Below, in pieces: positions 7,233-62,515 of a stretch of 64,000 nucleotides of DNA. The notes beneath the pieces were generated by a model, which saw nothing but the letters and a program-made list of their open reading frames with translations, had not been told where the DNA came from and did not search any database. How positions within the stretch are numbered: the first letter of the stretch is position 1; every line of letters begins with the position of its first letter. The DNA lies in assembly GCA_004173235.1 (NCBI GenBank), contig SEAC01000002.1, positions 186,001-250,000 of the forward strand. The letters are read 5' to 3'. The stretch is from Chitinophagaceae bacterium. GTDB lineage: Bacteria > Bacteroidota > Bacteroidia > Chitinophagales > Chitinophagaceae. The position numbers were made by a program, and so were the translations under genes.

Positions 7233-7370
7233 GTTTTCGGTTTAAGGTTTACAGTTTGCAGTTTCCGCAATGCCATGATGGTGCAGATAGAGAAGGCGCT
7301 GCATTGCAGCGCCTTCCTGTTTCGTTGCCAGCGCAACTTAAACACTGTAAACTAAAAACTGAAAACTGCT
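7233..7370. repeat. Inverted heptad arrays flanking a hairpin
   Basis: Left arm GTTTAAG/GTTTACA/GTTTGCA/GTTT (about 7238-7264); right arm ACTGTAA/ACTAAAA/ACTGAAA/ACTGC (about 7342-7370). Both have 7-bp period and are roughly reverse complements, with the terminator hairpin 7292-7316 between them. The element fills the gap between two convergent genes. Confidence 0.75.
7292..7316. terminator. Bidirectional hairpin between convergent genes
   Basis: GAAGGCGCTGCA and TGCAGCGCCTTC form a perfect 12-bp stem with a 1-nt loop. T-tracts are weak on both sides. Confidence 0.7.
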
Positions 7371-7371
7371 A

Positions 7372-7782
7372 TTACGCCAGCTTCGCTTCCGAACTGATCT
7401 CCGTATTCAACAGCTTCGAGATAGGGCAGTTTTGCTCGGCATTCTTTACCGCTTCCTGCCACTTTTCTTCGCTGATGCCGGGAACCTTTCCAGTTACGGT
7501 GAGGTGCGACCTGGTGATGGAGCCGTTCTCGAAAGTGATCTCGCATTTTGTTTCGAGCGAGTCGGCGGTAAAGCCACCTTCGCCGAGCACAAAGCTGAGC
7601 TTCATGGTGAAGCAGCCCGCATGCGCTGCGGCAATCAGCTCCTCGGGGTTGGTGCCGACGCCATCGGCAAAACGGGTGTTGAACGAATATTGCGTTTGCT
7701 GCAGCACGCCGCTTTGGGTGCTGAGCTGACCATTGCCTTCCTTGCCGGAGCCGTTCCAGACGGCCGATGCATGACGGATCAT
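7372..7782 (-). CDS. OsmC/Ohr-family peroxiredoxin-like protein
   Basis: 136 residues. OsmC-family proteins reduce organic hydroperoxides with paired cysteines. The pattern is clear: RHASAVWNGSGKEGNG near the N-terminus, the first active-site cysteine in PEELIAAAHAGCFTMKL and the second in EQNCPISKLL near the C-terminus. The start is set at the ATG at 7782 because the family begins here and because TAAATTTC lies 13 nt upstream; the frame stays open further up without family similarity. Cytoplasmic, single gene, convergent with the barrel protein. Confidence 0.88.
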   Translation of the reverse strand: MIRHASAVWNGSGKEGNGQLSTQSGVLQQTQYSFNTRFADGVGTNPEELIAAAHAGCFTMKLSFVLGEGGFTADSLETKCEITFENGSITRSHLTVTGKVPGISEEKWQEAVKNAEQNCPISKLLNTEISSEAKLA

Positions 7783-7787
7783 AAGCT

Positions 7788-7795
7788 GAAATTTA
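7788..7795 (-). promoter_or_regulatory. -7 box before osmC-like gene
   Basis: TAAATTTC on the minus strand, starting 13 nt before the ATG at 7782. Confidence 0.5.
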
Positions 7796-7927
7796 TTTAT
7801 GCTAAGATAAGTGCAGGCCATTCCCGCAAAAGCAGCGCTGCCCCAACCGAAATGCGTATCTTTAATAGGACCTCCGGCTTCCCCGCCGCCGCGCATCCGC
7901 TCCTTACGCCTCCTTCAATAATTGCTT

Positions 7928-8395
7928 ATGCGCCCCCCGATCGAAAAGATACTGCTTGTGGATGATGACCCCGACGATGCCTTCCTGCTGGAACGCGCCC
8001 TCGCCGAACTGCCCGTGCCCATCAAATTTCACAGCATCGAAGACTCCGACGAGGTGATCGCCGCGGTAACGCTGCACCGGCCCGACCTGATCTTCATGGA
8101 CATGAACATGCCCAAGAAGAACGGCCTCGAATGCCTCCAGGCCTTGCAGGAACAGCCCGTGCTGGCCAACATCCCGATCATTTTGTATAGTTCTTCCGAG
8201 CTGGCCTCTCTTATGGAGACTGCCTATGCCCATGGCGCTTCACTTTTCTTCCGCAAGCCTTCTACCTTTCTCGGGATGGTATCGGCGCTGCGCACGATCG
8301 TCGAAATGGACTGGAGCGACCCCTCCGCCATCCGCGCGCGCTTTTATGCACGTGACCGCGTCCCAGACGTCCGTCCCGAAGCCTCGGGCAGCTAA
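7928..8395 (+). CDS. Stand-alone response-regulator receiver protein
   Basis: 155 residues with one CheY-like receiver domain: acidic pocket VDDDPDDA (about residues 11-18), phospho-acceptor Asp in LIFMDMNMPKKNGLE (about residue 60), the Ser of ILYSSSE and the Lys of FFRKPS. There is no output domain; the last 30 residues are extra. It therefore acts by protein-protein contact, probably with a kinase encoded elsewhere. The ATG at 7928 is chosen over the in-frame TTG two codons earlier. No kinase gene is adjacent. Confidence 0.85.
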   Translation: MRPPIEKILLVDDDPDDAFLLERALAELPVPIKFHSIEDSDEVIAAVTLHRPDLIFMDMNMPKKNGLECLQALQEQPVLANIPIILYSSSELASLMETAYAHGASLFFRKPSTFLGMVSALRTIVEMDWSDPSAIRARFYARDRVPDVRPEASGS

Positions 8396-8721
8396 GCAAA
8401 AGCCTTTACGCGGCGCTAAATTCGGTACGGCTACTTAGGTACATCCTTTAGCGGCGCTTCACAAATCCCCCCAATTTGCCGAAATAGCGCGGCGTTTACT
8501 TGCATTACGGCGGAGCTGGGTCTAGCTTTACACCAGAATCCGAACGAACAAGTATCCAACATCCTTTGAAATCCGGCCATCCTATGAAAAACCCGGAAGT
8601 CCAATCCTTGTGAAAAACCGAACACGTCCACATCCTATGAAGAGCGCCAGGCCTGTTTCCGATTCCGACCGATAAAAAACGCTTTTCTCACCGTCCCACC
8701 GACGGGCCTGACCGAACCGAA
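8396..8721 (+). other. Intergenic region with ATCCTnTGAAA direct repeats
   Basis: No gene is visible. ATCCTTTGAAA (8561), ATCCTATGAAA (8579), ATCCTTGTGAAA (8604) and ATCCTATGAAG (8632) form four imperfect direct repeats, with a weaker ATCCTTTAG at 8443. GCGGCGCTAAA (8410) and TTTAGCGGCGC (8447) form a near-inverted pair. TAGCTTTA at 8523-8530 resembles a -7 box, so the stretch up to the terminator at 8750 could be a non-coding RNA or a long 3' UTR. Confidence 0.45.
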
Positions 8722-8750
8722 ATCCCTCGCCAACAGGCGGGGGATTTTTG
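8722..8750 (+). terminator. Terminator directly upstream of the korA promoter
   Basis: ATCCCTCGCC-AACA-GGCGGGGGAT stem followed by TTTTTG. It ends 4 nt before the korA -7 box, isolating korA from upstream transcription. Confidence 0.8.
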
Positions 8751-8754
8751 TTTG

Positions 8755-8762
8755 TACTTTTG
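8755..8762 (+). promoter_or_regulatory. -7 box of korA
   Basis: TACTTTTG, a perfect TAnnTTTG, 16 nt before the ATG at 8771. Confidence 0.6.
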
Positions 8763-8770
8763 CAGCCACT

Positions 8771-10615
8771 ATGGAACGCAAACAAGAGCTGTTACAGGAT
8801 GTGGTCATCAAGTTTGCCGGCGACTCCGGCGACGGGATGCAGCTCACCGGTACCCAGTTTACCAATAATACCGCGCTGCTGGGCGTGGACCTTTCTACCT
8901 TTCCCGACTTCCCCGCCGAGATCCGTGCCCCCATCGGCACACTCCCGGGCGTTTCGGGCTACCAGCTCCACTTCTCCTCCAATTCCATCCACACGCCGGG
9001 CGATGCCTTCGACGTGCTCGTGGCCATGAACGCCGCGGCACTGAAGGTGAACATCAAGCACCTGAAGAAAGGGGGCAAGATCATCGTGAACGTGGATGGA
9101 TTCGACGCTAAGAACCTTCGCCTTGCCAACTACCCCGAGGGCGTAAACCCCATCGAAGACAATTCGCTCGAAGGCTTCGAAGTGATCCGCATGGATGTGA
9201 CGAAGATGACCCGCGAGGCGTTGAAGGAAGACAAGCTCGGTACGAAAGAAAAAGACCGCGCGAAGAACATGTTCGTGCTCGGTTTCCTTTATTGGATGTA
9301 TGGCCGCGACCTTAAAAGCACCGAGCAGTTTCTCGAAGAGAAGTTTGCGCGCAAGCCCGACATCCTCGAATCGAACCTGAAGGTGCTCCGCGCCGGTTAC
9401 AACTACGGCGATACAACGGAAACCTTTACCACGCAATACCACGTTGAAAAGGCGCGGATCAAGGCAGGCGCCTACCGCTCCATCATGGGCAACCAGGCGC
9501 TGGCCTACGGGCTGGTGGCAGCATCGGTGAAGAGCGGTCTCCCCATCTTCCTCGGCACTTATCCCATCACGCCGGCGTCCGACATCCTCCACGAGTTGTC
9601 GAAGCACAAGAACTTCGGCGTACGCACCTTCCAGGCCGAAGACGAGATCGCGGGCATCAGTGCCGCTATCGGCGCTTCGTATGGCGGGCAGCTGGGCATC
9701 ACCACCACCTCGGGTCCGGGGATGGCGCTGAAGACCGAAGCAATGGGCCTTGCGCTGATGCTGGAGTTGCCGCTTGTGATCGTGGATGTGCAGCGGGGTG
9801 GCCCATCCACCGGCCTGCCCACCAAGACCGAGCAAAGTGACCTGCTGCAGGCCGTATACGGACGCAACGGCGAAAGCCCGATGCCGGTGATCTCTGCAAG
9901 CACGCCTTCCGATTGTTTTGAAACCGCCTACGAAGCCTGCCGCATCGCGGTGGAGCATATGACGCCGGTGATCTTTTTGAGCGACGGCTACATTGCCAAT
10001 GGTGCCGAGCCCTGGCAGTTCCCCAATACCGAATCGCTGCCGAAGATCCACGTGGAGTTCAAAACGGAGCTTGGCCACAACGAGCCGAAGTTTCAACCTT
10101 ACCTGCGCAACGAAAAAGGCGTTCGACCCTGGGCGGTGCCCGGAACGGCCGGCCTCGAGCACCGCATTGGCGGGCTGGAAAAGGAAAACGTTACGGGCAA
10201 CGTGAGCTACGACCCGGAGAACCACCAGCTGATGGTGAAGCTGCGGCAGGAGAAGGTAGACAAGATCGCACAGTACATTCCTGAGCAGGCACTCGACAAC
10301 GGGCCCGAAACCGGCAAGGTGCTGGTGCTGGGCTGGGGATCTACCTACGGCGTTATCAAAACCGTGGTGAAAGAACTCGTGGAAGAAGGCCACACGGTGG
10401 CGCACGCGCACCTGCGCTACATCCGCCCATTCCCGCGCAACCTCGGTGCGCTCCTTTCCAGATACGACACCGTATTAATACCGGAGATCAACAACGGCCA
10501 GCTGATCAAGCTGATCCGCGACCAGTTCCTCATCGATGCCAAAGGCTACAACAAGATCATGGGCGTGCCCATTACGAAGGCGGAGCTGATGGAAGAGGTG
10601 AAGAAGTACCTGTAG
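8771..10615 (+). CDS. korA: 2-oxoacid:acceptor oxidoreductase, alpha subunit with fused gamma domain
   Basis: 614 residues. The N-terminal 190 are the gamma domain (VIKFAGDSGDGMQLTGTQF near residue 12, FPDFPAEIRAP, SSNSIHTPGDAFDVLVAMN), then the alpha domain from about 225 (GNQALAYGL, YPITPASDILHEL, TTTSGPGMALKTEAMGLA, VDVQRGGPSTGLPTKTEQSDL). This is the KorA architecture: with KorB (TPP and 4Fe-4S) it oxidatively decarboxylates 2-oxoglutarate or a similar acid, using ferredoxin. No korB-like gene follows; the next gene is a small lipoprotein 60 bp away, so the beta subunit must be elsewhere. It has its own terminator-insulated promoter. Confidence 0.93.
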   Translation: MERKQELLQDVVIKFAGDSGDGMQLTGTQFTNNTALLGVDLSTFPDFPAEIRAPIGTLPGVSGYQLHFSSNSIHTPGDAFDVLVAMNAAALKVNIKHLKKGGKIIVNVDGFDAKNLRLANYPEGVNPIEDNSLEGFEVIRMDVTKMTREALKEDKLGTKEKDRAKNMFVLGFLYWMYGRDLKSTEQFLEEKFARKPDILESNLKVLRAGYNYGDTTETFTTQYHVEKARIKAGAYRSIMGNQALAYGLVAASVKSGLPIFLGTYPITPASDILHELSKHKNFGVRTFQAEDEIAGISAAIGASYGGQLGITTTSGPGMALKTEAMGLALMLELPLVIVDVQRGGPSTGLPTKTEQSDLLQAVYGRNGESPMPVISASTPSDCFETAYEACRIAVEHMTPVIFLSDGYIANGAEPWQFPNTESLPKIHVEFKTELGHNEPKFQPYLRNEKGVRPWAVPGTAGLEHRIGGLEKENVTGNVSYDPENHQLMVKLRQEKVDKIAQYIPEQALDNGPETGKVLVLGWGSTYGVIKTVVKELVEEGHTVAHAHLRYIRPFPRNLGALLSRYDTVLIPEINNGQLIKLIRDQFLIDAKGYNKIMGVPITKAELMEEVKKYL

Positions 10616-11156: not shown

Positions 11157-11160
11157 ACCC

Positions 11161-17443: not shown

Positions 17444-17486
17444 AGAAGCTATTCACCCGGGTTCGTCACCGCAAAGAGAAGAAGGA

Positions 17487-17788
17487 AAGAAGGTAAGCGC
17501 AAAGACAGTACTGCTATACTTCTGGCGCAATCCTGTTTTACTTTTTTTTTAATAAAAGAAGGTAAGCGCAAAGACAGTACTGCTATACTTCTGGCGCAAT
17601 CCTGTTTTACTTTTTTTAATAAAAGAAGGTAAGCACAAAGGCAGTGCTGCTATACTTCCTGGCGCAATCCTTTTTTCTTTTTTTAAGGAAAGAAGGTGAG
17701 CACAAAGGCAGTACTGCTATACTTCCTGGCGCAATCCTTTTTTCTTTTTTTAAGGAAAGAAGGTAAGCGCAAAGGCAGTACTGCTTTC
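17487..17788. repeat. 67-69 bp tandem repeat, about 4.5 copies
   Basis: AGGTAAGCGC-type unit starts lie at 17491, 17560, 17627, 17694 and 17761 (periods 69, 67, 67, 67). Each unit carries GCGCAAAGRCAGTACTGCTA, TACTTC-TGGCGCAATCC and a T-tract. The block fills the gap between two convergent genes, and its last partial copy runs into the 3' end of nth. The leading ACCGCAAAGAG suggests derivation from the common CGCAAAG-type intergenic repeats. Confidence 0.9.
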
Positions 17789-19931: not shown

Positions 19932-19976
19932 AACAATTGTTCAATATTCAACGCGCAATGTTCAATTTTCAAGTGG
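19932..19976. repeat. TTCAATn heptad array at the enolase 3' end
   Basis: TTCAATA/TTCAACG/CGCAATG/TTCAATT/TTCAA, 7-bp period, 22 nt from the enolase terminator hairpin. Confidence 0.7.
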
Positions 19977-28944: not shown

Positions 28945-29040
28945 CCCGGCCGAAACCCTCACGAACCTTCCGCACCTTCCAGAACCTTCCAGAACCTTCC
29001 GGAACCTTCCCCAACTCTTCGGAACCTTCACGAACCTATC
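28945..29040. repeat. GAACCTTCCn array, 10-bp period
   Basis: About seven degenerate copies of GAACCTTCCA/GAACCTTCCG, directly before the gene at 29054. The last copy runs into TATCTTTA (29037-29044), a possible -7 box. Confidence 0.75.
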
Positions 29041-33602: not shown

Positions 33603-33650
33603 CTCCACATCTCACATCTAACATTTGACGTCTAACATTCAACATCTTCC
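33603..33650. repeat. ACATCTn heptad/octad array
   Basis: CACATCT/CACATCTA/ACATTTGA/CGTCTAA/CATTCAA/CATC, 7-8 bp period, between two plus-strand genes. Confidence 0.65.
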
Positions 33651-33671: not shown

Positions 33672-34175
33672 ATGAACCCCGAACAACACGCAGAAGAGCA
33701 ACATAACCTGTTTATTACCCAGGCAACCGAGAACGGTGTGGTGTGGGCCCTCCGCTCCAGCGAAGGCTACGCGGTATCGCCATCCAACGACTACGACGAA
33801 TCGGAAGTGATCCCTTTCTGGTCGCATGCCGAGGGAGCACGCGCACTGGCCACCGACGAGTGGGGCGCTTACGAGGTGACGGAGCTGCCACTGGCGGAAT
33901 TCCTCGAAACGTGGATGCTCGGAATGCAGAGTGAAGACCTGCTGGTGGGCACCAACTGGGATGCCGAGCTGGCGGGCACTGAACTGGAGCCGATCGAGCT
34001 GGCTTACGAGATCACCGGCAAGCTGCTGGAAACGGGCAAAGACCTGCAACTCGAGCACTTCGACAGCCTTCAGCACTTCCACGACCAGCTAAAGCAAGCC
34101 ATCGAGGCGGGTGGTGACGAAGACGAAGACGAGGAAGATGACGAGGAGGAAGAAGAAGAGAAAGAGAAAAAGTAA
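33672..34175 (+). CDS. DUF2750-family protein with acidic tail
   Basis: 167 residues. The core matches DUF2750: ENGVVWALRSSEGYAV, VIPFWSHAEGARALATDEWG, LPLAEFLETWMLGMQSEDL, GTNWDAELAGTELEP. The last 20 or so residues are a run of E, D and K encoded by GAG/GAA/GAC repeats, an unusual low-complexity acidic tail that may vary in length by slippage. Soluble; function unknown. Strong terminator 8 nt past the stop. Confidence 0.8.
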   Translation: MNPEQHAEEQHNLFITQATENGVVWALRSSEGYAVSPSNDYDESEVIPFWSHAEGARALATDEWGAYEVTELPLAEFLETWMLGMQSEDLLVGTNWDAELAGTELEPIELAYEITGKLLETGKDLQLEHFDSLQHFHDQLKQAIEAGGDEDEDEEDDEEEEEEKEKK

Positions 34176-34204: not shown

Positions 34205-34207
34205 CGC

Positions 34208-34306
34208 TACGACACGACGGCACGACGAACAAAGGACGAGTAAACATTTCATTGCTTGTACTATAAAATTATTCCTGACGTCGTGTCGTCCCGTCGTCGT
34301 GCTCCC
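34208..34306. repeat. Inverted ACGACGnn arrays, 8-bp period
   Basis: ACACGACG/GCACGACG near 34212-34227 and TCGTGTCG/TCCCGTCG/TCGTGC near 34281-34301 are mutually inverted with about 50 bp between. Confidence 0.65.
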
Positions 34307-35071: not shown

Positions 35072-35074
35072 AAA

Positions 35075-35150
35075 GCAAATCATAACTAATCTTATTAATC
35101 TGCGAGCCGCCTGCGGCATCTGCGTTCTTTGTCTTCGTCCGCCAAAACAG
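35075..35150. repeat. GAAAGAACGCAGAT element (half copy)
   Basis: GCAAATCATAACTAATCTTA, TTAATCTGCG, an internal GCCGCCTGCGGC hairpin and ATCTGCGTTCTTTG: one arm of the foldback family also found at 37738, 44129 and 61422. Confidence 0.75.
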
Positions 35151-35242: not shown

Positions 35243-37699
35243 ATGAGAAGCGTATTTCTTTCCAGCCTCTTCGCCCTCCTGGCCTTTGCCGGCAACGCAC
35301 AGGTATCGGGTGCCGTACAGGACGCAAACGGCAAAGCCATCCCCGGCGTAACCGTAACGCTCCTGCGCGACTCCGCCACCGTTGTGAAGCTTGCCGTAAG
35401 CCGCGAAGACGGTTCCTTTGCCTTCCCCGCACCGGCCGCCGGCCGCTACCGCGTGCAGGCCTCACACGTTGGCTTTGCGCCGACCGCTTCCGCACCCTTT
35501 GAAATCACCTCCGCCCCTGTTTCGGTGCCCGCATTCCGCCTCGCAGCAGCTTCATCCGAAATGGCTGCCGTTACCGTTGCAGCACGCAAGCCCATCGTGG
35601 AAGTGCGCGCCGACAAAATGATCGTAAACGTGGAAGGCACCATCAACGCCACCGGCAACGATGCCCTCGAGCTGCTCCGCAAGAGCCCGGGCGTGCAGGT
35701 AGACAAAGACGACAACCTCGCCGTAGCCGGCAAGAATGGCGTGCAGGTGTATGTGGACGGACGCCCGACGCCGCTCACCGGCACCGACCTCGCCAACTAC
35801 CTCAAAACGTTGCAGTCGAGCCAGATCGAAAACATCGAGATCATCACCAACCCTTCGGCGAAGTATGAGGCGGCAGGGAATGCCGGCATCATCAACATCC
35901 GCCTGAAAAAGAACAAGAACTACGGTGCCAACGGCTCGGTGAACGCCGGCTACAACGTGGCGCACTATTCGAAATACAACGCAGGCCTTTCGCTCAACTA
36001 CCGCAACAAGGCCGTGAACCTGTACGGCAACTACAACTACAACTACAGCCGCAACTTTACCGAGCTCTCGCTGTTCCGCTCCATCCCCGACACGCTGTTC
36101 GACCAGATCGGCCGCAACCGGATGCTCCTCCGCAGCCACGGCTTCAAGGCCGGTGCCGACTTCGCGCTCAACAAGCGCCACTCGCTGGGTGTGATGGTGA
36201 ACGGCAACCTCTCGGACCCTACGATGGACATGAACGGCCACACGCCCATCATCGTGCGCAGCAGCGGCGTGGTAAACCGTCACCTGGTGTCGGAAAGCCA
36301 CAACGAGATGAAGCGCAACAACGTGAACGTGAACGGCAACTATGCCTACACAGGCACCAAGGGCCGCAACCTCACGGTAAATGCCGATTATGGTTACTAC
36401 GACATCAACACCGACCAGCGCCAGCCGAACTATACCTATGAGCCCGATGCGAAGACGCTGCGCAGCTACTCCGCCATCCACTCCATTTCGCCTACGCGCA
36501 TCGACATTACGTCGCTGAAGGCAGACTGGGAGCAAGACCTCGGCAAGGGTAAGCTCGGTGCAGGCGGCAAGACGGCCTTCACAACGTCGGACAACGACTT
36601 CCGCCGCTACGATGCCAGCACGGCCACGGAGCTTTTCGATTACAACCGCAGCAACCGCTTCCGCTACGAAGAGCAGATCCACGCGGGCTACGTCAACTAC
36701 AACCGCCAGATGAAAGGCTTCATGCTGCAGGGTGGACTCCGCGTGGAGCACACTTCCGGCACGGGTACGTCTGAAGGCCAGGTGCTGCAGGGCGGAAGCT
36801 ACGTTCCCAACAAATCCGGCTTCACCCGTAATTATACGGACTTCTTCCCCAGTGCTGCTCTTACCTTCAACAAGAACCCGATGAAGGTGTGGAACCTCAC
36901 CTACAGCCGCCGCATCGACCGCCCGGCCTACCAGGATCTGAACCCCTTCGAATTCCAGCTCGATTCGTTCAGCTACTCGAAAGGCAACATCAACCTGCGC
37001 CCGCAATACACCAACAGCGTAGGTATCAGCCATACGTATAAATACAAGCTCAACGCATCGCTCAACTACAGCCACGTAGCCGACATGCTTGCACAGCAAA
37101 TCGACCGCAAGGGCTCCGCCTCCTACATCACGAAGCAAAACCTCGCCACGCAGGATGTGATCGCGTTCAACGTAAGCTATCCGTTCATGTACAAGAACTT
37201 CATGTCGTTCGTGAACGTAAGCTCCAACTACTCGATGTACAAGAGCCCCGCAACGGCAACCGGCCCTGCGGTTTCGCTCGAAGCGTTCGGCCTCACTGCC
37301 TTCGCGCAGAACAGCCTGAAGTTTGGTAAAACGAAGTCCTGGACTGCCGAAGCCACTGCCTTCTACAATGCGCCCACCGTTTACCAGGGTCTCTTCCGCG
37401 CCCGCTCCATGGGCTCCGTTGACCTGGGCGTGCAGAAAGCGATCTTCAAAGGGCAAGGCACCATAAAGGCTTCGGTGAGCGACGTGTTCCGCACGCTCCG
37501 CTTCGATGCCTACAGCGACTATAATGGTCAGCGCACCGATATCCTTGCCCGTTGGGAAAGCCGCCAGTTCAAAGTGAACGTCTCCTGGCGCTTTGGCAAC
37601 AAGCAGGTGAAAGCTGCGAAACAACGCACCGGCGGCGCCGAAGAAGAAGTGAAGCGCACGCAGGGCGGCAACAGCGGCGGCATCGGCATCGGCGGATAG
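35243..37699 (+). CDS. Outer-membrane TonB-receptor-like barrel (CarboxypepD-regulatory/OMP_b-brl_3 type)
   Basis: 818 residues. Signal peptide 1-19, carboxypeptidase-regulatory-like domain about 20-100 (VSGAVQDANGKAIPGVTVTL), plug-like region about 110-230 (NALELLRKSPGVQVDKDDN-like stretch, VYVDGRPTPL, IEIITNPSAKYEAAGNAGII), then a long barrel rich in Y/N/R strands and a Gly-rich tail (QGGNSGGIGIGG). This architecture is common in Bacteroidota and related to TonB-dependent receptors, though many members lack proven TonB dependence; substrate unknown. No SusD partner gene follows. Monocistronic, flanked by foldback repeats on both sides. Confidence 0.88.
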   Translation: MRSVFLSSLFALLAFAGNAQVSGAVQDANGKAIPGVTVTLLRDSATVVKLAVSREDGSFAFPAPAAGRYRVQASHVGFAPTASAPFEITSAPVSVPAFRLAAASSEMAAVTVAARKPIVEVRADKMIVNVEGTINATGNDALELLRKSPGVQVDKDDNLAVAGKNGVQVYVDGRPTPLTGTDLANYLKTLQSSQIENIEIITNPSAKYEAAGNAGIINIRLKKNKNYGANGSVNAGYNVAHYSKYNAGLSLNYRNKAVNLYGNYNYNYSRNFTELSLFRSIPDTLFDQIGRNRMLLRSHGFKAGADFALNKRHSLGVMVNGNLSDPTMDMNGHTPIIVRSSGVVNRHLVSESHNEMKRNNVNVNGNYAYTGTKGRNLTVNADYGYYDINTDQRQPNYTYEPDAKTLRSYSAIHSISPTRIDITSLKADWEQDLGKGKLGAGGKTAFTTSDNDFRRYDASTATELFDYNRSNRFRYEEQIHAGYVNYNRQMKGFMLQGGLRVEHTSGTGTSEGQVLQGGSYVPNKSGFTRNYTDFFPSAALTFNKNPMKVWNLTYSRRIDRPAYQDLNPFEFQLDSFSYSKGNINLRPQYTNSVGISHTYKYKLNASLNYSHVADMLAQQIDRKGSASYITKQNLATQDVIAFNVSYPFMYKNFMSFVNVSSNYSMYKSPATATGPAVSLEAFGLTAFAQNSLKFGKTKSWTAEATAFYNAPTVYQGLFRARSMGSVDLGVQKAIFKGQGTIKASVSDVFRTLRFDAYSDYNGQRTDILARWESRQFKVNVSWRFGNKQVKAAKQRTGGAEEEVKRTQGGNSGGIGIGG

Positions 37700-37850
37700 T
37701 CGCGAGTCGTGAATCGTCAATCGCGATGCGCGGCCAGGAGAAAGAGCGCAGATCTTTTATGATTATTAGGATTTTCGCGGATTGCTTTTAGGGCAAATCA
37801 TAATGAATCATAACGATCTTAATAGATCTGCGTTCTATCTCTAAGTGGCC
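37700..37850. repeat. CGTGAATn array plus GAAAGAACGCAGAT foldback element
   Basis: GTCGTGAATCGTCAATCGCG is followed by GGAGAAAGAGCGCAGAT and, inverted, ATCTGCGTTCTATCTC. Inside lie TATGATTATTAGGATT and AATCATAACGATCTTAATAG. No gene. Confidence 0.75.
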
Positions 37851-38971: not shown

Positions 38972-39696
38972 TTCGTTGCATGATCATCGACGATGAGCAG
39001 CACGCCATCGACATCCTGGAGCACTACGTGAAGCAAGCGCCCTACCTCGAGCTGGTGGGCACGAGCACGCATCCCATCGAGGCGTTGCAGGAAGTGGCCG
39101 GCGGCAAGGTCGACCTGGTATTTCTGGATGTGCAGATGCCGGAACTCTCCGGTCTCGACTTCATCAAAGCCATCAACGGAAAGGCAAGGGTGATCCTCAC
39201 TACGGCCTATCCTGAGTTCGCGCTGGAAGGCTACGACCTCGACATCGTGGATTACCTGCTGAAGCCCGTGCGTCTCCCCCGCTTTTTGCAGGCCGTGCAA
39301 AAGGCTATGACCGTACTGCAGCCGGCTGCCCCTGCACAGGCGGCGCCGGCTTTGGAAGAGGAAGACGATTACCTTTTTGTGAAGACGGAGTCGAAGGGAA
39401 AGTTGCTGAAGATCAACCTCGGCGACATTGATTATATTGAAGGAATGAAGAACTACGTGGCCATTCACCGCGGCAACCAGAAGACCCTGGTGTATACGAG
39501 CATGAAAGAGCTGGAAGAGCGGCTGCCGCAACGCCGTTTTCTGCGCGTCCACAAATCCTTCATCATACCCATGGGGCGCATCACCGGCATCGAAGGCAAT
39601 ATGGTCCGGCTCAAGGACGTGCAGGCCGAGATCCTTATCGGCGACAACTACAAGTCAGAGCTGATGGACCTGATCCGCAACAAGATGATCAAGTGA
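38968..39696 (+). CDS. LytTR-family response regulator
   Basis: 242 residues. Receiver domain: MIRCMIIDDEQHAIDIL, phospho-acceptor Asp in LVFLDVQMPELSGLDF, VILTTAYPEFALEGYDLDIV, DYLLKPVRL. LytTR DNA-binding domain from about 140 (YLFVKTESKGKLLKINLGDI, IEGMKNYVAIH, RFLRVHKSFIIPMGRI). It is the partner of the preceding kinase, translationally coupled. LytTR regulators bind direct repeats upstream of target genes; targets are not identifiable here. The ATG at 38968 is chosen over upstream in-frame starts inside the kinase gene. Confidence 0.93.
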   Translation: MIRCMIIDDEQHAIDILEHYVKQAPYLELVGTSTHPIEALQEVAGGKVDLVFLDVQMPELSGLDFIKAINGKARVILTTAYPEFALEGYDLDIVDYLLKPVRLPRFLQAVQKAMTVLQPAAPAQAAPALEEEDDYLFVKTESKGKLLKINLGDIDYIEGMKNYVAIHRGNQKTLVYTSMKELEERLPQRRFLRVHKSFIIPMGRITGIEGNMVRLKDVQAEILIGDNYKSELMDLIRNKMIK

Positions 39697-39730
39697 TGAG
39701 TAATGAGCAATGAGCAATGAGTGATGAGTG
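39697..39730. repeat. GAGCAAT heptad array
   Basis: GAGTAAT/GAGCAAT/GAGCAAT/GAGTGAT/GAGTGAT, exact 7-bp period, starting right after the regulator stop codon. Confidence 0.85.
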
Positions 39731-39814
39731 ATCTGCAGGTATGGATACTATCTACTCAACGTTGGCAGGTCCCTTACCAATAGGGAATTAAAGCAATAAA
39801 CTAAATTAACCGAT

Positions 39815-41699: not shown

Positions 41700-41702
41700 C
41701 AC

Positions 41703-41805
41703 AGTTTAAAGTTTCCAGTTTTTGGTTCGCGATCCGTACACCGTAGGGCAATTACTAATTGCCGCGAGTGCAACTATAAACTTCAAACTGTAAACGGTAC
41801 ACTAA
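41703..41805. repeat. Inverted AGTTTnn heptad arrays around a hairpin
   Basis: Left AGTTTAA/AGTTTCC/AGTTTTT/GGTT; right AACTATA/AACTTCA/AACTGTA/AACGGTA. Between them GGCAATTA-C-TAATTGCC (41747-41763), a perfect 8-bp stem. The right arm ends 11 nt before the kbl ATG. Confidence 0.8.
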
Positions 41806-41816
41806 ACTTTCCCAAC

Positions 41817-44109: not shown

Positions 44110-44275
44110 GGAACGTGAATCGTCAATGAGAGAAAGAACGCAGATCCGCCTGTGGCGGATACGCAGATTATTAAGATCAGTTATGATTTGCTTACGCCAA
44201 CAATAAATCTGCGCTTATCATAAAAATCATAAAAGAACTGGAGCCTGCCCCGCCCCTGCGGGGTTCTTTCTCTAG
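44110..44275. repeat. GAAAGAACGCAGAT foldback element
   Basis: GAGAGAAAGAACGCAGATCC, a short GATCCGCC-TGT-GGCGGAT hairpin, GCAGATTATTAAGATCAG, AAATCTGCGC..ATCATAAAAATCAT and a terminal GTTCTTTCTCTAG. The ends are inverted. It fills the gap between transketolase and the 3' end of galE and overlaps the galE stop. Confidence 0.85.
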
Positions 44276-45331: not shown

Positions 45332-45359
45332 CAAAAATACAGCAATCGTGAATCGTCAA
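45332..45359 (-). promoter_or_regulatory. Promoter of galE
   Basis: TTG, a 17-nt spacer and TATTTTTG on the minus strand. The TTG and spacer lie in the CGTGAAT array, so the repeat supplies the -33 element. Confidence 0.55.
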
Positions 45360-45460
45360 TCGTGAAACGTGAGCCGTGAGCCGTCAGCCCCAAAGCGCGT
45401 ATAAGCAGAAGGGATGCCATCGGCATCCCCACTGAAATCAGGCTTAAGCCTCACGATTCA
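45344..45460. repeat. Inverted GTGAATC heptad arrays around a hairpin
   Basis: GTGAATC/GTCAATC/GTGAAAC/GTGAGCC/GTGAGCC/GTCAGCC (exact 7-bp period, 45349-45389), hairpin GGGATGCC-ATC-GGCATCCC (45411-45429), then GCCTCACGATTCACG as the inverted arm. Lies between galE and the 3' end of the PiT gene. Confidence 0.85.
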
Positions 45461-45465
45461 CGTCC

Positions 45466-46698
45466 TTACACAAACAAGTGCACGATAAAATACACCAGTG
45501 CTGCCAGGAGTCCGCTCACGGGGATGGTCAGGATCCAGGCCCAGAGCAGGTTGATGGTGACGCCCCAACGCACGGCCGACAGGCGCTTGGTGGCTCCAAC
45601 GCCGATGATGGAACCGGTGATGGTGTGCGTCGTGCTCACGGGGATCTTCAAAGCTTCGGTGACAAAGAGCGTGATGGCGCCGGCAGTTTCCGCGGCCACG
45701 CCTTCAAATGGCGTCACCTTGGTAATCCGCGTACCCATCGTCTTGATGATCTTCCAGCCACCCGAAATGGTGCCCAGCGCGATGGCGCTATAGCAGGCCA
45801 GCGGTACCCAGAATTCCATATGCCCGAGCGAAAAACGGTTGTGGTCATATGCTACCAGCGCAGCCATGATGATGCCCATCACCTTCTGTGCGTCGTTGCC
45901 GCCGTGGCCGATGGAAAAGGCCGCAGACGAAACGAGCTGCAGGCGCTTGAACCAGATGTTGCCTTTGTTCGCATTCAGCGACTGCAGGAAGAAAGTGAAC
46001 ACCGCCATCACCGTAAGGATGAAGGCAAGCAGGATCCACTTGAAGTTCTTGGAATAAAAGATCGTTTGCGCGAGGTAGCTCTTGTAGTTCGAACCTTTGG
46101 CCAGCACCACCGGGTCGGTTTCGAGGTTGCAGTACAGGAAGTACGCGATGCCCACGAGCACCAGCACAGAAATAAGCCGTGGAAAGAAGCCTTTGCGGAA
46201 GGAATAAAGGAACCACAACGAGATGGTAAATGCCATGATCAAACCCACCAGCGGCGCCACGAAGATGAAGCCCGCGGTAGTGAGGATGTTGGGGCTGTGA
46301 CTGAGGTTGATGGCGCCGAAACCCGCAGCCGCAATGCCCGCACCGGCGAAGCCGCCAATGAGCGTGTGCGACGACGATGAAGGAATGCCGAACCACCAGG
46401 TAAGCAGGTTCCAGATGATGGCGGCGATCAGCCCGGAGAAGATTACGCGCATCATGTTGGCCGAATCGGCCGCGTTCACGATGTCTTTGTTGACGGTCTT
46501 GGCCACCGTGTCTGCCACGCCGTGATCCTTGAAGATGAAGTAGGCGGCGAAGTTGAACACCGCTGCCCAAACCACCGCCTGGAACGGCGTCAGCACTTTC
46601 GTGGACACCACCGTTGCGATGGAGTTGGCGGCGTCGTGAAAACCGTTGATGTAATCGAAGATGATCGCGAGGGCTATGATGATGATGAGAAAGGTCAT
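45466..46698 (-). CDS. PiT-family inorganic phosphate transporter
   Basis: 410 residues, inner membrane, about 10 helices. The two inverted PiT signatures are present: IFDYINGFHDAANSIATVVS near the N-terminus and IPVSTTHTITGSIIGVGATK near the C-terminus, with FSIGHGGNDAQKVMGI in the middle. PiT carriers import phosphate-metal complexes with protons or sodium. The DUF47 accessory gene is 87 bp upstream on the same strand (with a palindromic repeat in the gap) and a phosphate-type porin is divergent from that, so this is a phosphate-uptake locus. Confidence 0.95.
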   Translation of the reverse strand: MTFLIIIIALAIIFDYINGFHDAANSIATVVSTKVLTPFQAVVWAAVFNFAAYFIFKDHGVADTVAKTVNKDIVNAADSANMMRVIFSGLIAAIIWNLLTWWFGIPSSSSHTLIGGFAGAGIAAAGFGAINLSHSPNILTTAGFIFVAPLVGLIMAFTISLWFLYSFRKGFFPRLISVLVLVGIAYFLYCNLETDPVVLAKGSNYKSYLAQTIFYSKNFKWILLAFILTVMAVFTFFLQSLNANKGNIWFKRLQLVSSAAFSIGHGGNDAQKVMGIIMAALVAYDHNRFSLGHMEFWVPLACYSAIALGTISGGWKIIKTMGTRITKVTPFEGVAAETAGAITLFVTEALKIPVSTTHTITGSIIGVGATKRLSAVRWGVTINLLWAWILTIPVSGLLAALVYFIVHLFV

Positions 46699-56963: not shown

Positions 56964-57100
56964 GGCTTCGGCTGCGCTCAGCCCGACAAACGGCTGCGCT
57001 CAGCCCGACAAACGGCTGCGCTCAGCCTGACAAACGGCTGCGCTCAGCCTGACAAGCGCTGCGCTCAGCGTACCAGTTGTCATCCTGGGCCTGTCGAAGG
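56964..57100. repeat. 22-bp tandem repeat plus inverted arm
   Basis: CGGCTGCGCTCAGCCCGACAAA-type units at about 56970, 56992, 57014 and 57036 and a partial fifth (22-bp period), then TTGTCATCCTGGGCCTGTCG as inverted arm. It is an expanded copy of the CTTCGACTACGCTCAGCCTG family (see 46705), lying between receptor and lipoprotein genes. Confidence 0.85.
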
Positions 57101-57142
57101 ACCAATGAACTAGTAAACTAATAAACCTCTTAACTCCAACAG

Positions 57143-58543
57143 ATGAAACGCATTCTTCTTTTTGCAACAACAATCGTACTGGCAGCTGCTTCCTGCCGCA
57201 AGATCCAGGTGGATGGTGACGGCAGCGGGGGCAGTACTTCTACGGTAACGCCCGAGTCGACCATCCTGTCGGGTACCATCGGGTCGGACCTGACGCTGCG
57301 CTCCGGAAAGACCTACACGCTTCGCGGCATCGTATACATCGCCAATGGCGCGCAGCTCACCATCGAGCCCGGCGTGACCGTGGTGGGCGACAAGGCATCG
57401 CGCGGCACTTTGGTGGTTACGCGCGGCTGCCGCATCAACGCAGCAGGCACGGCAACCAACCCCATCGTGTTCACATCGAGCGAAGGCAGCAACGCGCGCT
57501 CCGGCGACTGGGGCGGGCTCGTGATCCTGGGGCGTGCGAAGACCAACGCAACCTACAACGGTCAGGCAGGCCTCGGTGAAGCCGAAGGCGGCATCAACAA
57601 CGGCGATGGCTACGGCCTCTTTGGCGGCACCGACGACAACGACAACAGCGGCACACTGAAGTATGTGCGCATCGAATACGCAGGCTACGCCTTCCTCCCC
57701 GATAAGGAGTTGAACGGACTTGGACTGTATGCTGTTGGCAGAGGCACCACCATCTCGTATGTGCAGGTTGCCTGGGCTGCCGATGACTCCTTCGAGTGGT
57801 TCGGCGGCTCGGTGAATGCCGATCACATCATCGCTTACAAAGGATTGGATGACGATTTCGATACAGACAACGGCTTCTCCGGCAAAGTGCAGTTTGCCAT
57901 CGGCATTCGCGACAGCGCCGTTGCCGACGTGAGCGGCTCCAACGGATTTGAAAGCGACAACGATGCAGCGGGCTCCACGCTTGCGCCGCAAACGAGCGCT
58001 GTATTCGCCAACGTAACATCGGTTGGTCCGCGCGAAACGTTGAGCAGCATCGGCAACAGCCTGTACCGCAACGGGGCGCAGATTCGCCGCAATTCTTCTC
58101 TTTCTATCATCAACTCTGTTTTCCTCGGTTGGGAAACGGGCCTGCTGATCGATGCATCAACGGGTCGTCCCACGGATGCGAACATCACGGGCGCTTCGGC
58201 TACGCTGTGGTATCGCGGCAACATCATCGCGGGCTCGGCACGGCCGGTGCGTTATTCGGCCAGCACGGGCGCGCCCACCGGCTGGACCGGAGCGGATGCA
58301 ACAACGTGGTTCAACACAACTGGCTTCAACAACCAGCTGCTCGCCAACAACAGCGATGCGGGTTATGCGGCGGCTTTCAACTACAGCAACCCCGATTTCA
58401 CTCCTGCAACTACATCGCCGCTGCTCAACGGCGTGTATACATCTGCAGACGCACGCCTCGCCGGCCTCCAGGCGGTAACCTATCGCGGAGCCGTTGGCCC
58501 CGCCGATACGTGGTATAAAGGATGGACGCGGTACGGAAACTAG
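57143..58543 (+). CDS. Surface lipoprotein, right-handed beta-helix-like
   Basis: 466 residues. Lipobox LAAASC (Cys18). After a short Gly/Ser linker comes a repeat-rich body: DLTLRSGKTYTLRGIVYIAN, GAQLTIEPGVTVVGD, NPIVFTSSEGS, WGGLVILGRA, LKYVRIEYAGYAF, ISYVQVAWAADDSFEWFGGS, as in right-handed parallel beta-helix proteins. It probably binds a ligand at the cell surface for the TonB receptor 180 bp upstream, like other receptor-lipoprotein pairs, but it is not SusD-like. Function unproven. Confidence 0.75.
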   Translation: MKRILLFATTIVLAAASCRKIQVDGDGSGGSTSTVTPESTILSGTIGSDLTLRSGKTYTLRGIVYIANGAQLTIEPGVTVVGDKASRGTLVVTRGCRINAAGTATNPIVFTSSEGSNARSGDWGGLVILGRAKTNATYNGQAGLGEAEGGINNGDGYGLFGGTDDNDNSGTLKYVRIEYAGYAFLPDKELNGLGLYAVGRGTTISYVQVAWAADDSFEWFGGSVNADHIIAYKGLDDDFDTDNGFSGKVQFAIGIRDSAVADVSGSNGFESDNDAAGSTLAPQTSAVFANVTSVGPRETLSSIGNSLYRNGAQIRRNSSLSIINSVFLGWETGLLIDASTGRPTDANITGASATLWYRGNIIAGSARPVRYSASTGAPTGWTGADATTWFNTTGFNNQLLANNSDAGYAAAFNYSNPDFTPATTSPLLNGVYTSADARLAGLQAVTYRGAVGPADTWYKGWTRYGN

Positions 58544-58680
58544 TGGGTGAATGGGCAATGGGCAAAGGTGAATGGTCAATGGCAACATGATAGGACAATG
58601 CCCCGCTGGTGCGGGGCATTTTTCGGATGTTCAATATACAATGTGCAATGCCGAAGCTTCGCGATCAATGTTCAAATTGG
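58543..58680. repeat. ATGGGCA/TTCAATn heptad arrays around a terminator
   Basis: ATGGGCA/ATGGGCA/AAGGTGA/ATGGTCA/ATGGCAA on the left, GTTCAAT/ATACAAT/GTGCAAT and GATCAAT/GTTCAAA on the right, 7-bp period, hairpin 58597-58620 between. The right array supplies the stop codon of the convergent gene at 58672. Confidence 0.8.
58597..58623 (+). terminator. Terminator after lipoprotein gene
   Basis: AATGCCCCGC-TGGT-GCGGGGCATT then TTTC; 54 nt past the stop at 58543. Confidence 0.85.
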
Positions 58681-59609: not shown

Positions 59610-59630
59610 TTGGCGGTGGTGCGCGTCAGT

Positions 59631-59720
59631 TCTCCTGTGCTGCGCACGTAGTTCCCGGTGCTGCGCCGTTGTCTTCGGGTCCGGGGCTGCTCTCCTGTGC
59701 TGCGCACTTAGTTCCCGGTG
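59631..59720. repeat. 30-bp direct repeat at 60-bp spacing
   Basis: TCTCCTGTGCTGCGCAC.TAGTTCCCGGTGC at 59631-59660 and again at 59691-59720, differing at one base. TGCTGCGC also recurs between. No gene. Confidence 0.75.
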
Positions 59721-59827
59721 CGCAGTGCCGGGATCTGGGGCAATGCTTTGCGCAAGCCATAACACATCCTTCATATTGCCTTCACCGCACGGTAAAACCA
59801 GTGCATCACCTTTAGCAAAACAAAATC

Positions 59828-60271: not shown

Positions 60272-60313
60272 GTTGTAGAAATACGGGAATGGTCAAAACG
60301 TTGTAATCCCATC

Positions 60314-61384
60314 TCAGGGCTTGCGTGTTCTTTCGGCCTCGCGGCTGGCAAGAGTGAAGCCAATAGTAGTACCCACGTCTTCGGTGCTGCGCACGTGGAT
60401 GTTGTGGCCGTGCGCTTCGATAATGTGCTTGCAGATGGCGAGCCCCAGCCCCGAGCCTGTGATGTCGCGGCCACGGCCCGCCGGCGTGCGGTAAAAGCGC
60501 TCGAAGATGCGGCCCAGCGCCGACTCGGGAATGCCCATTCCATCGTCGGAGATCTCCACGAGGATGTTTTGCCCGTCGGTATTGTACAGCGATGCCGTAA
60601 CGTTTCCATTCTGCCTTCCATACTTCACCGCATTGTCTACGAGGTTGATCAGCACCTGCCGGATCTTCTCCTGATCGGCCCACACGTTGAGCGGTGCCTC
60701 ACAGCCTTTCTTGATCTGTAAAGTGATGCGCATCGGCTCGGCGAGCAGTGAAAGGCTTTCATACACTTCGCGCACGAGGTCTTGTATGACGAAGTTGCTG
60801 CGGTGCAATTTGAGCTCGCCGCGCTCGAGCCGCGAGATCTCGTCGAGGTCCTGGATGAGGTGGGAGAGGCGCTCCACGTTGCGTTGCGCCTTTTTCAGAA
60901 AACGCTCGGCCATTTCGTGCTCGTCCATCGCGCCCTGCAGCAGCGTTTCGATGTAACCCTGGATGGCAAACACCGGCGTCTTGAATTCGTGCGAAAGGTT
61001 TTGCAGGAATTCTTTGCGGAACGTTTCGTTTCGTTTCAGCAGTTCGATCTCGCGGCGCTTCTGCTTGCCCCAGGCCTCCACGTCTTCGCGCACTTCGTCG
61101 ATGCTTTTTTGCGGGAGGATGTATTTGTAATAAGTCTCCTGTTTTTTGGAAGCCTTTGTTTGGTAGATGAATTTGTAAATGAGCTTCAGCTTGCGGTAAA
61201 TGAAGCGCTGGATGATGTACAAGATGAGTGCGTACGAGCCGGCGCAGATCACCACGCAGGATACGATGGCCTCGCGCCAGCTGTGCCCGCCAAATGCGAA
61301 GAAGCCTATCCCGATGGGAACGGAAAGCACCAGGGCGGTGAAGAGGGCCAGTTGGCGGGGGGAGAGGTTTTTTTCTTTGAACAT
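60314..61384 (-). CDS. PhoR-like sensor histidine kinase
   Basis: 356 residues, inner membrane. Two membrane helices at the N-terminus (LALFTALVLSVPIGIGFFAF and IVSCVVICAGSYALILYIIQ) with a very short loop between, a cytoplasmic linker (about 60-130), then HisKA (phospho-acceptor in FLQNLSHEFKTPVFAIQGYI) and the ATPase domain (NLVDNAVKYG, ISDDGMGIPESALGRIFERF, GSGLGLAICKHIIEAHG). The lack of a periplasmic sensor is like PhoR. Downstream partner of the OmpR/PhoB-type regulator, separated by a 190-bp foldback repeat that may affect co-transcription. Confidence 0.92.
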   Translation of the reverse strand: MFKEKNLSPRQLALFTALVLSVPIGIGFFAFGGHSWREAIVSCVVICAGSYALILYIIQRFIYRKLKLIYKFIYQTKASKKQETYYKYILPQKSIDEVREDVEAWGKQKRREIELLKRNETFRKEFLQNLSHEFKTPVFAIQGYIETLLQGAMDEHEMAERFLKKAQRNVERLSHLIQDLDEISRLERGELKLHRSNFVIQDLVREVYESLSLLAEPMRITLQIKKGCEAPLNVWADQEKIRQVLINLVDNAVKYGRQNGNVTASLYNTDGQNILVEISDDGMGIPESALGRIFERFYRTPAGRGRDITGSGLGLAICKHIIEAHGHNIHVRSTEDVGTTIGFTLASREAERTRKP

Positions 61385-61574
61385 CGTGAAGCGTGATTCG
61401 TGAATCGGGGAACGCAAGCGGCGGAGAGAAAGAACGCAGATGCCGCAGGCGGCTCGCAGATTATTAAGATCAGTTATGATTTTGCTGACGCGCGACGGAA
61501 GAAAAAATCTGCGCGAATCATAAAGATCATAGAGGATCTGCGTTCTTTCTCGCCTGCGCCGAAGGCGCTCGCCC
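61385..61574. repeat. GAAAGAACGCAGAT foldback element inside a two-component operon
   Basis: CGTGATTCGTGAATCG array copies, then GAGAGAAAGAACGCAGAT (about 61423), GCCGCAGGCGGC, GCAGATTATTAAGATCAG and, inverted, ATCTGCGTTCTTTCTC (about 61536-61551). Most complete copy of the family; lies between regulator and kinase genes. Confidence 0.85.
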
Positions 61575-62255
61575 TTAAAGATCGAACTTATACCCCACAC
61601 CCTTCACCGTCGTTATGCAATCGACGCCCAGCTTCTGCCGGATCTTGCGGATGTGCACATCAATGGTGCGATCGCCCACGATGACGTCGTTGCCCCACAC
61701 CTGGCTGAGGATCTCGTTGCGCAGAAACACCTTGCCCGGCCTGGAAGCGAGCAGGTAGAGCAGCTCGAACTCCTTTTTTGCCAGCACGATGGTGCGCCCT
61801 TCATACTGCACCTCGAAGCGTTCGGGGTCGATGCGAAGGCCACCGGCCTGCAGGCTCTTTCCGTCGCTCTTGGGCGTGGCGCGCCGCAGCAGCGCCTGCA
61901 CCTTGCTTACAAATACCTTGGGCGAAATGGGTTTGCTGATGTAATCGTCGGCGCCGGTGGCCAGGCCCTGGATCTGCGTAGCCTCGTCGCTGAGCGCCGT
62001 GAGGAAGATGATGAGCATATCTTTCAACGCCGGTTGCGCGCGAAGGATCTCGCACACTTCCACGCCCGTTTTGCCGGGCATCATGATGTCGAGCACTACG
62101 AGATCGGGCTGCAACTGCTGCGCGCGGATGAGGGCTTCATCGCCATCCTGCGCCGTAAACACCTGGTAGCCGGCGCGGGCGAGGTGAAATTCAAGCAGCT
62201 CGCGAATGTCGGGCTCGTCGTCGGCGATCAGCACTTTCCAGGAACGGTTCTCCAT
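61575..62255 (-). CDS. OmpR/PhoB-family response regulator
   Basis: 226 residues. Receiver: KVLIADDEPDIRELLEFHLA, phospho-acceptor Asp in LVVLDIMMPGKTGVEVCEIL, IIFLTALSDEATQIQGLATG, DYISKPISPKVF. Winged-helix output: LRIDPERFEVQYEGRTIVLA, KKEFELLYLLASRPGKVFLR, VIVGDRTIDVHIRKIRQKLG, ITTVKGVGYKF. The PhoB-like C-terminal domain and the short-loop kinase downstream make phosphate sensing likely, not proven. The ATG at 62255 matches the family; box TAGGTTTG at 62274-62281 precedes it. Confidence 0.93.
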   Translation of the reverse strand: MENRSWKVLIADDEPDIRELLEFHLARAGYQVFTAQDGDEALIRAQQLQPDLVVLDIMMPGKTGVEVCEILRAQPALKDMLIIFLTALSDEATQIQGLATGADDYISKPISPKVFVSKVQALLRRATPKSDGKSLQAGGLRIDPERFEVQYEGRTIVLAKKEFELLYLLASRPGKVFLRNEILSQVWGNDVIVGDRTIDVHIRKIRQKLGVDCITTVKGVGYKFDL

Positions 62256-62273
62256 CAGCGTTTCGTGTTGGCG

Positions 62274-62281
62274 CAAACCTA
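62274..62281 (-). promoter_or_regulatory. -7 box of PhoB-like regulator gene
   Basis: TAGGTTTG on the minus strand, a perfect TAnnTTTG, 26 nt before the ATG at 62255. Confidence 0.55.
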
Positions 62282-62297
62282 AGCCAAAGGAAGAGTG

Positions 62298-62323
62298 GTT
62301 ACAAACAGTTCATAATTACTTAA
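62298..62323 (-). promoter_or_regulatory. Weak Pho-box-like sites before regulator gene
   Basis: On the minus strand TAAG, GAAC and TAAC at 11- and 10-bp spacing, the last 46 nt before the ATG. Much weaker than the array at 54076. Confidence 0.25.
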
Positions 62324-62338
62324 TAGGAGAAGATTGGG

Positions 62339-62515
62339 TTGAGGAGTTAAGGAGTTAAGGGGTTAAGGGGTTAAGGGGTTAAGGTGTTAAGGAGTTATGG
62401 GATTAGGAGTTAGGAGTTCGCCGTTGAAAGGTGCCACTTTCAGTGCCCAACGGCGGCTGCCGAAACGGCGCGTGTGCGTCCTGCTGAGTTGCTAACAACC
62501 TCCTAAACCTTTCCG
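62339..62515. repeat. GGAGTTAA octad array, hairpin and inverted GAACCTCC arm
   Basis: AGGAGTTA/AGGAGTTA/AGGGGTTA (three times)/AGGTGTTA/AGGAGTTA/TGGGATTA, 8-bp period; then GCCGTTG..CAACGGC (62420-62454); then CTCCTAAACCTTTCCGAACC and CCTGAACCCCTGAG as inverted arm. Confidence 0.8.

Follow-up and report, generated by a model that had tools for sequence, protein, structure and literature searches.

Why do the gene borders in one stretch of a Chitinophagaceae genome carry short tandem arrays that share a period of 7 or 8 bases while their sequences differ? The stretch in question, here called the window, comprises 64 kb (G000:C10:186001-250000) of the genome G000 (3.76 Mb in 41 contigs). An earlier note on the window had listed ten such arrays and taken the unit to be specific to its locus. 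Here, the arrays were followed through G000, other genomes of its genus (genus-mates) and more distant lineages. An arm consists of a few degenerate copies of a word of 7, 8, 9 or 10 bases with a core and free positions. In the common layout, two arms of the same word family flank a spacer unique to the locus, face inward and abut the gene borders. The reading preferred here, which is given about an even chance, is that the arrays are dispersed non-coding intergenic repeats that resemble repetitive extragenic palindromic (REP) sequences and bacterial interspersed mosaic elements (BIMEs), are copied to new loci, and use words that coexist and are quickly replaced.

Recurrent words with a common period

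Gene borders were taken from a simple codon-usage gene caller written for the analysis, and intergenic regions shorter than 30 bp were ignored. Intergenic autocorrelation at lag 7, a check proposed in the earlier note, was raised in the window (z = 5.3) and in 400 kb of contig C22 (z = 17.0). Lags 14 and 21 were raised as well, as were lags 3 and 6, and these extra lags are read in part as an echo of coding. At a score of at least 11, the 48.5 kb of intergenic DNA in C22 contained 38 arrays of period 7, 11 of period 8 and 9 of period 10, plus multiples. Shuffled, the same DNA gave 0 to 0.05 arrays for periods 7, 8 and 10, and 351 kb of C22 coding sequence gave 1, 0 and 0. Over 1.004 Mb of G000, arrays with a period of 7 to 10, or of a multiple thereof, were present in 139 of 581 intergenic regions, i.e., in 35 of 94 convergent, 43 of 202 '++', 36 of 160 '--' and 25 of 125 divergent ones.

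The same words recurred in separate intergenic regions. Among 129 units of periods 7 and 8 (one per intergenic region and period), 189 exact pairs between regions were found, compared with 11.2 after letter shuffling. Seventeen words, picked after the data had been inspected, cover 152 of 184 arrays in G000 with at most one mismatch. Thus, the units are not locus-specific but belong to about 17 recurring families. The other half of the earlier description, a real class of elements with a common period across differing words, was borne out. A conserved core with free positions was seen in ACAAACN, CACGGAANN and AAACTGN, with 18 of 18 units agreeing in each of the seven core columns of CACGGAANN; other words were less sharp.

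Arrays were also carried by the genus-mates G010, G012, G013, G003 and G016. Exact units were shared with G000 by 9 of 23 in G010 (0.9 expected), 4 of 10 in G012 (0.5), 1 of 17 in G013 (0.5), 1 of 14 in G016 (0.4) and 0 of 6 in G003 (0.4); at no more than one mismatch, G013 shared 14 of 17 (7.4 expected). Words were therefore clearly shared with the two nearest tested species only, G010 and G012. Three other families of the order were represented by 100 kb each: G025 had three arrays, called at periods 10 and 14, and none were found in G019 and G024. For the wider phylum, 20 stretches were requested, 5 were dropped as shorter than 8 kb, and of the 15 used, 7 contained at least one array irrespective of period, including 4 with a call at period 7 or 8; by this thin sample, the arrays are sporadic there.

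Beyond these, a degenerate TTCAA pattern matched at least 119 stretches in Bacteroidota, Geobacter, Chloroflexi, cyanobacteria, Verrucomicrobia, Campylobacterales and others; within the phylum of the window, just 3 of the 61 genomes sampled were matched. The 119 stretches listed were all scanned by script, and 62 were inspected by eye; since they were picked via TTCAA arrays from among the matches, they form a non-random sample. Their non-TTCAA arrays had period 7 in 54 cases, period 8 in 24, period 9 in 8 and period 10 in 7, and only 2 of 83 units from these lineages were shared exactly with G000 (3.3 expected). Unit sharing fades while period 7 prevails elsewhere, and thus the vocabulary is lineage-bound and the period is not. 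The same 2 of 83 leaves a word vocabulary common to bacteria unsupported beyond the TTCAA word used as the search pattern. Separately, the reversed control pattern matched 27 and 17 times in G072 and G077, two genomes of one genus (g28), which appear as another lineage with a heptamer word of its own, RYAACTT.

A shared period might arise by local replication slippage, which was proposed by Mrazek et al. (2007), as cited in the excerpts used here of PMC4679880 and PMC4692102, for an excess of heptanucleotides in long simple sequence repeats (SSRs) of many genomes. A polymerase prone to slips of about 7 nt would expand heptamers wherever two copies happen to adjoin. The predominance of period 7 over period 8 in other lineages too (54 against 24 non-TTCAA arrays in the listed stretches) agrees with this, as do several foreign arrays that are perfect repeats. 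In SSRs formed by slippage, neighbouring units would be more alike than distant ones; here, 64 of 367 adjacent units were identical, compared with 134 of 630 non-adjacent units of the same array and 1356 of 5481 units of the same family in different intergenic regions. Stratified by family, 50 of 298 neighbours were identical (71.2 expected), and permuting the unit order in 141 arrays gave 88.0 ± 5.6 identical neighbours against 75 observed. Neighbours are thus less alike than distant family members, the opposite of the trace of local duplication, and the unit statistics contradict simple slippage, as the earlier note had surmised. Recombinational loss of perfect neighbours may account for this dissimilarity. 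Slippage also fails to predict recurrent words, inward inverted arms and flush borders, and is considered improbable. The cited SSRs resemble the present arrays in their heptamer excess; the present ones, in contrast, are degenerate, and their neighbouring units match less well than distant family members do.

Arm polarity and placement at gene borders

An inverted partner in the same intergenic region (SW of at least 12; regions above 700 bp were excluded from the inverted-repeat list of G000) was detected for 47 of 108 arrays, compared with 11 of 108 in control regions and with 9 of 108 for direct partners. Pairs of the same family within one region faced inward in 23 cases (><), pointed the same way in 2 (>>) and were never oriented <> or << (0 each). 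The strand of each word was set from left arms, 33 of which agreed and 3 were opposite, the 3 representing another word merged by the loose distance. The alternative that arms frame a gene was discarded, as same-family arms of different intergenic regions no more than 4 kb apart were oriented << 5, >< 5, >> 7 and <> 7 times. In the RNA folding that the earlier note had called for, arm paired with arm over at least half of its length in 42 of 45 pairs, a set preselected as inverted repeats.

Since the word strand was derived from left arms, a G/C test independent of families was added. Arrays no more than 25 nt from the left border of an intergenic region had G>C in 42 cases and G<C in 14; at the right border, the counts were 7 and 42. 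The corresponding ratios were 17:5 (left) and 8:17 (right) in genus-mates and 45:12 (left) and 11:48 (right) in other lineages, whose control regions were unbiased (86:77 and 80:89). Sorted by gene end, the inward strand was G-rich in G000 at stops by 55:14 and at starts by 29:7 (84:21 in total), and in other lineages, from which TTCAA arrays were removed for this comparison, by 32:5 and 12:6 (44:11 in total). Thus, arrays at borders carry their G-rich strand inward irrespective of gene direction. A single polarity of the TTCAA word across lineages was unsupported (16 vs 17).

Polarity of this kind might point to a strand-specific barrier to DNA processing, in which inward G-rich words act as Chi-type sites that limit how far breaks in the gap are resected. 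The G-rich polarity inward at both borders speaks for it, and the polarity of the arms is compatible with a Chi-like reading. Against it stand the many words in one genome; to our knowledge, Chi is one word per species. Such a barrier is regarded as extremely improbable.

Placement was equally regular. In G000, 46 arrays lay no more than 5 nt from a stop codon, compared with 14.1 by random placement in the same intergenic regions; the corresponding values were 15 vs 6.7 in genus-mates and 46 vs 15.4 in other lineages. Starts were overlapped by 5 to 15 nt in 0 cases (11.4 expected) and approached to 5 to 15 nt in 20 (11.9 expected). In all 13 of 13 convergent pairs, both arms were within 21 nt of both stops. 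The position at gene ends described in the earlier note therefore holds for stops, but not as the sole site, since arrays are found at starts as well.

The earlier note had suggested that the arms are parts of terminators or of hairpins protecting 3' ends and are under selection at transcript ends. The excess at stops and the 13 convergent pairs agree with this, as do the highest array density in convergent regions (2.02 per kb, compared with 1.12 in divergent ones) and the T-runs seen by eye after arms 3' of the enolase gene in G006 and G003. Of 45 pairs, 13 had a terminator-like hairpin, in most cases within the spacer (8 of 13 convergent, 4 of 13 '--', 1 of 11 '++' pairs and 0 of the 8 divergent ones), so it is chiefly in convergent regions that the arms enclose a terminator; in some genus-mates, the hairpins appeared by eye to be made by the arms. 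On the other side, the arms lie mostly outside the terminator, arrays in divergent regions and at starts follow the same inward rule, the arms of one region show little extra matching (25 of 89 identical units, order P=0.16; see below), and conservation at orthologous sites is low. An exclusive role at transcript ends is unsupported, given the divergent density, the strand rule at starts and the distribution of the hairpins, and transcript-end structures as the basis of the arrays are judged unlikely.

Replacement, proposed copying and known repeats

At orthologous loci, words were replaced between species, as the earlier note had proposed to examine. Of the 17 genomes of the genus, 4 (G009, G006, G003 and G002) had detected period-7 arrays within 300 nt past the enolase stop, with at least three words among them; in several other genus-mates, plain GC hairpins were seen there by eye. 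The window's own TTCAA-type array lies past the terminator and below the threshold of this 17-genome scan. Among 25 orthologous intergenic pairs of G000 and G010 or G012, arrays were present in both members of 2, in G000 only in 2, in the other species only in 5 and in neither in 16. One word family was kept in all three species at the region 45328. At region 46699, G010 carries an 8-mer pair of the GTGGTAAT type and G012 one of GAAGTGG; at region 61385, the words are ATTACATG (G010) and GTGAGCC (G012). No clean empty site was found, the orthologous regions of G010 and G012 being too diverged for alignment.

The best evidence for copying of whole elements is a 141-bp arm-loop-arm unit in Prevotella, which is present at two unrelated loci (L346 = G033:C16, and L172) with 95% identity and in part at a third. 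Its ends are promoter-like and point outward. The related Prevotella orthologue L327 lacks the unit, and the difference looks like replacement rather than clean insertion. A whole element including its interior was thus seen at several loci in one Prevotella genome and not in G000. Two other routes found little or no support in G000. Copying between arms through a hairpin template left little sign, since arms of one region shared 25 of 89 units, compared with 1356 of 5481 elsewhere, and their unit order was no better than shuffled (P=0.16). Copying of long intact blocks was rejected at 16.0 vs 15.7 for unit order shared between loci, a comparison whose Wilcoxon P of 2e-8 counts non-independent pairs as independent.

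Several results weigh against the preferred reading. No partner was detected for 61 of the 108 arrays. Array-free intergenic regions of G000 are skewed in the same direction, though less strongly (211:116 and 127:209), and the TTCAA pairs lack a single word polarity across lineages, as given above. Spacers are locus-unique, with no 9-mer common to more than 3 of the 47 pairs, so that in G000 loops were not copied together with arms; unit order, too, is barely common to different loci. No target-site duplication was found in the 14-nt flanks of the 47 pairs (mean 3.06 vs 3.01), whose boundaries are fuzzy, and no mobilising enzyme was found by a Y1_Tnp search and inspection of gene neighbourhoods.

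REP and BIME elements are dispersed intergenic inverted pairs with variable linkers and fixed polarity. REP elements mobilised by REP-associated tyrosine transposases (RAYTs; Y1_Tnp) were considered as an alternative. The broad layout is that of BIMEs, Y1_Tnp matches were found in 13 of 17 same-genus genomes (3 matches in G000), and a heptamer array lay within 350 nt of 3 of 16 examined Y1_Tnp genes. Yet arrays are common near any gene, and most of the 16 genes were flanked, by eye, by ordinary GC-rich palindromes, so that the elements flanking the RAYT genes were not the arrays. Moreover, no Y1_Tnp match was found in G004 and G008 (79% and 84% complete), and G004 has, by eye, word-like inverted arms past enolase. 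Mobilisation by RAYTs is accordingly disfavoured and considered very improbable. The arrays also differ from REP/BIME in that their arms are tandem words with no palindromic REP unit, while the RAYT genes of the genus have palindromes of their own. At L307, L311, L303 and other Y1_Tnp loci, flanking GC-rich palindromes typical of REP elements were noted by eye. The REP class is named in the excerpt used of PMC3733652.

The closest known system is the GGGAATC heptamer of Xanthomonas. According to the excerpts used of PMC4692102 (Rehm et al. 2015), GGGAATC in Xanthomonas and GGGGA(C/T)T in Nostoc form (GGGANTN)n arrays with a core and variable positions, mostly of four units and mainly intergenic, with 70 and 75 convergent pairs and fewer between divergent open reading frames (ORFs); length and sequence differ among related species, and the function is left open. 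Inverted convergent pairs with the G-rich strand inward at ORF borders are common to both systems, and the core with free positions recurs in the period-7 words here, other words having period 8, 9 or 10. In the published cases, as excerpted, one word type per genome is described, with G-runs capable of forming G-quadruplexes, whereas about 17 words with periods between 7 and 10 occur here, most of which lack a run of three G. Arrays and placement of this kind had thus been described before, for one word type each. By the earlier note's own standard, this is in part a refutation. Also comparable are the TAACTGA heptamers of Beggiatoaceae, which the excerpts of PMC4679880 describe as intergenic, patchy over phyla including Bacteroidota and, unlike the present arrays, one word, mostly direct and just 5' of start codons; TAACTGA is not among the listed units of the analysed arrays. 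The BrickBuilt miniature inverted-repeat transposable element of Porphyromonas gingivalis, of one family with 23-nt units and 19 copies in one strain in the excerpt of PMC4596501, likewise lies between genes in a member of the Bacteroidota and is built of tandem units with inverted ends. A literal search of the open-licence literature for six repeat strings gave no match. Because the literature covered was open-licence only, the many-word form is not claimed as unpublished.

Arrays of the window and proposed origin

In the window, each of the ten loci listed in the earlier note reached P≤0.015 when its best lag-7/8 run was compared with 1000 shuffles of its own intergenic region (P printed as 0.000 at 7238, 33603, 39697, 45349, 58543 and 62339, 0.003 at 34208, 41703 and 57105, and 0.015 at 19932). 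Double arrays, mostly inverted, had been reported at five loci. Inverted arms were recovered at 7233, 41703 and 45344 (P printed as 0.000 of 200 shuffles) and at 62339 (0.005); at 58543, the arms were direct.

The first pair has a left arm of the AGTTTNC word directly past a stop codon (7229..7266, +; lag-7 score of 12.5 over 7233-7264 and SW of 18 for the inverted match, each with P printed as 0.000) and an inverted right arm (7333..7371, -) before the stop of an OsmC-like gene (7372-7782, -; PF02566). A second AGTTTNC inverted pair occupies 41700..41812 (arms 41700-41728 and 41770-41812; inverted SW 15, P printed as 0.000). The GTGAATC/GTGAGCC pair at 45344..45466 (arms 45344-45390 and 45440-45466; inverted P printed as 0.000) encloses a GC hairpin between epimerase and PHO4 transporter genes, and the same word family is found in G010 and G012. 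At 62338..62535, a GTTAAGG(G) 8-mer array (62338-62418; lag-8 score 42.5) is accompanied by a loosely matching inverted arm (62490-62535; P=0.005). The direct case, 58544..58671 (+), combines an AATGGGC-type array past a stop with one of CAAT type close to the opposite stop (P=0.765 for inverted orientation, and printed as 0.000 for direct). Beyond the five claimed pairs, ACGACACG forms an inverted 8-mer pair at 34206..34302 (arms 34206-34232 and 34277-34302; array P=0.003; inverted SW 13, P printed as 0.000 of 300 shuffles). No strand was assigned to the four inverted pairs at 34206, 41700, 45344 and 62338.

Single arrays comprise a TTCAAT-type array past the enolase-side terminator hairpin (19934..19975, +; lag-7 P=0.015), whose inverted partner in its own region was not significant (P=0.105), an ACATCT-type array (33606..33647, -; lag-7 score 10.5, P printed as 0.000) just 5' of the start of a DUF2750 gene (33672-34175; PF11042), an AATGAGT array (39692..39732, +; lag-7 score 24.0) overlapping the stop of a LytTR response-regulator gene (PF04397/PF00072) and an 8-mer array of ACTAATAA (57104..57126, -; P=0.003) 5' of the gene beginning at 57143. 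Two further arrays were absent from the earlier list: one of GTGAATC type at a stop codon (37698..37723, +; score 11.5) and a AACCTTCCGG-type 10-mer array in a divergent region (28974..29010, no strand assigned; score 24.5).

Other elements of the window were noted besides. A second dispersed intergenic family with AGAGAAAGAACGCAGAT... and ATCATAA words and inverted arms lies at 44129-44246, 35074-35141, 37738-37814 and 61421-61560, is present elsewhere in G000 and has many copies in G010 and G012. A 67-base tandem repeat (17482-17785; 4.5 copies, 93% matches) and a 22-base one with CGGCTGCGCTCAGCC... (56969-57069), the word of which recurs elsewhere in G000, were also found. The gene content, which includes the Por secretion tail domain PF18962 (profile search), points to Bacteroidota.

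Returning to dispersal by copying, new loci may arise when existing arrays, or whole arm-loop-arm units, are copied into other intergenic sites. Unit order would then be reshuffled and identical neighbours lost, and the arms would come to lie flush with stop codons or promoters through purging of anything further in. As a side effect, many transcript ends may carry a strong hairpin formed by the two arms. More tentatively, and as the less probable proposition, the arrays could belong to an intergenic class that occurs in many phyla and is defined by its geometry rather than its sequence, with a period near 7 bases, a core with free positions, arms that reach the gene borders and an inward G-rich strand. 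Such a class would be generated by copying that preserves the word and its register while scrambling the unit order and avoiding identical neighbours. If so, each lineage would have its own word set, and the same gene border would carry a different word in each species.

The excerpted open-licence literature treats heptamer repeats singly, word by word, and proposes slippage or G-quadruplexes. Here, about 17 words in one genome obey one geometric rule that extends to arrays in other phyla, and a single sequence-specific binder would not explain so many words. Scattered observations would thereby merge into the questions of which process places copies of short words at gene borders in a fixed strand orientation and whether the arm pair is active in DNA or in RNA. 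Since roughly one in four of the intergenic regions sampled has an array, and since the arrays turn over from species to species, they likely shape 3' untranslated regions, terminators and the surroundings of promoters.

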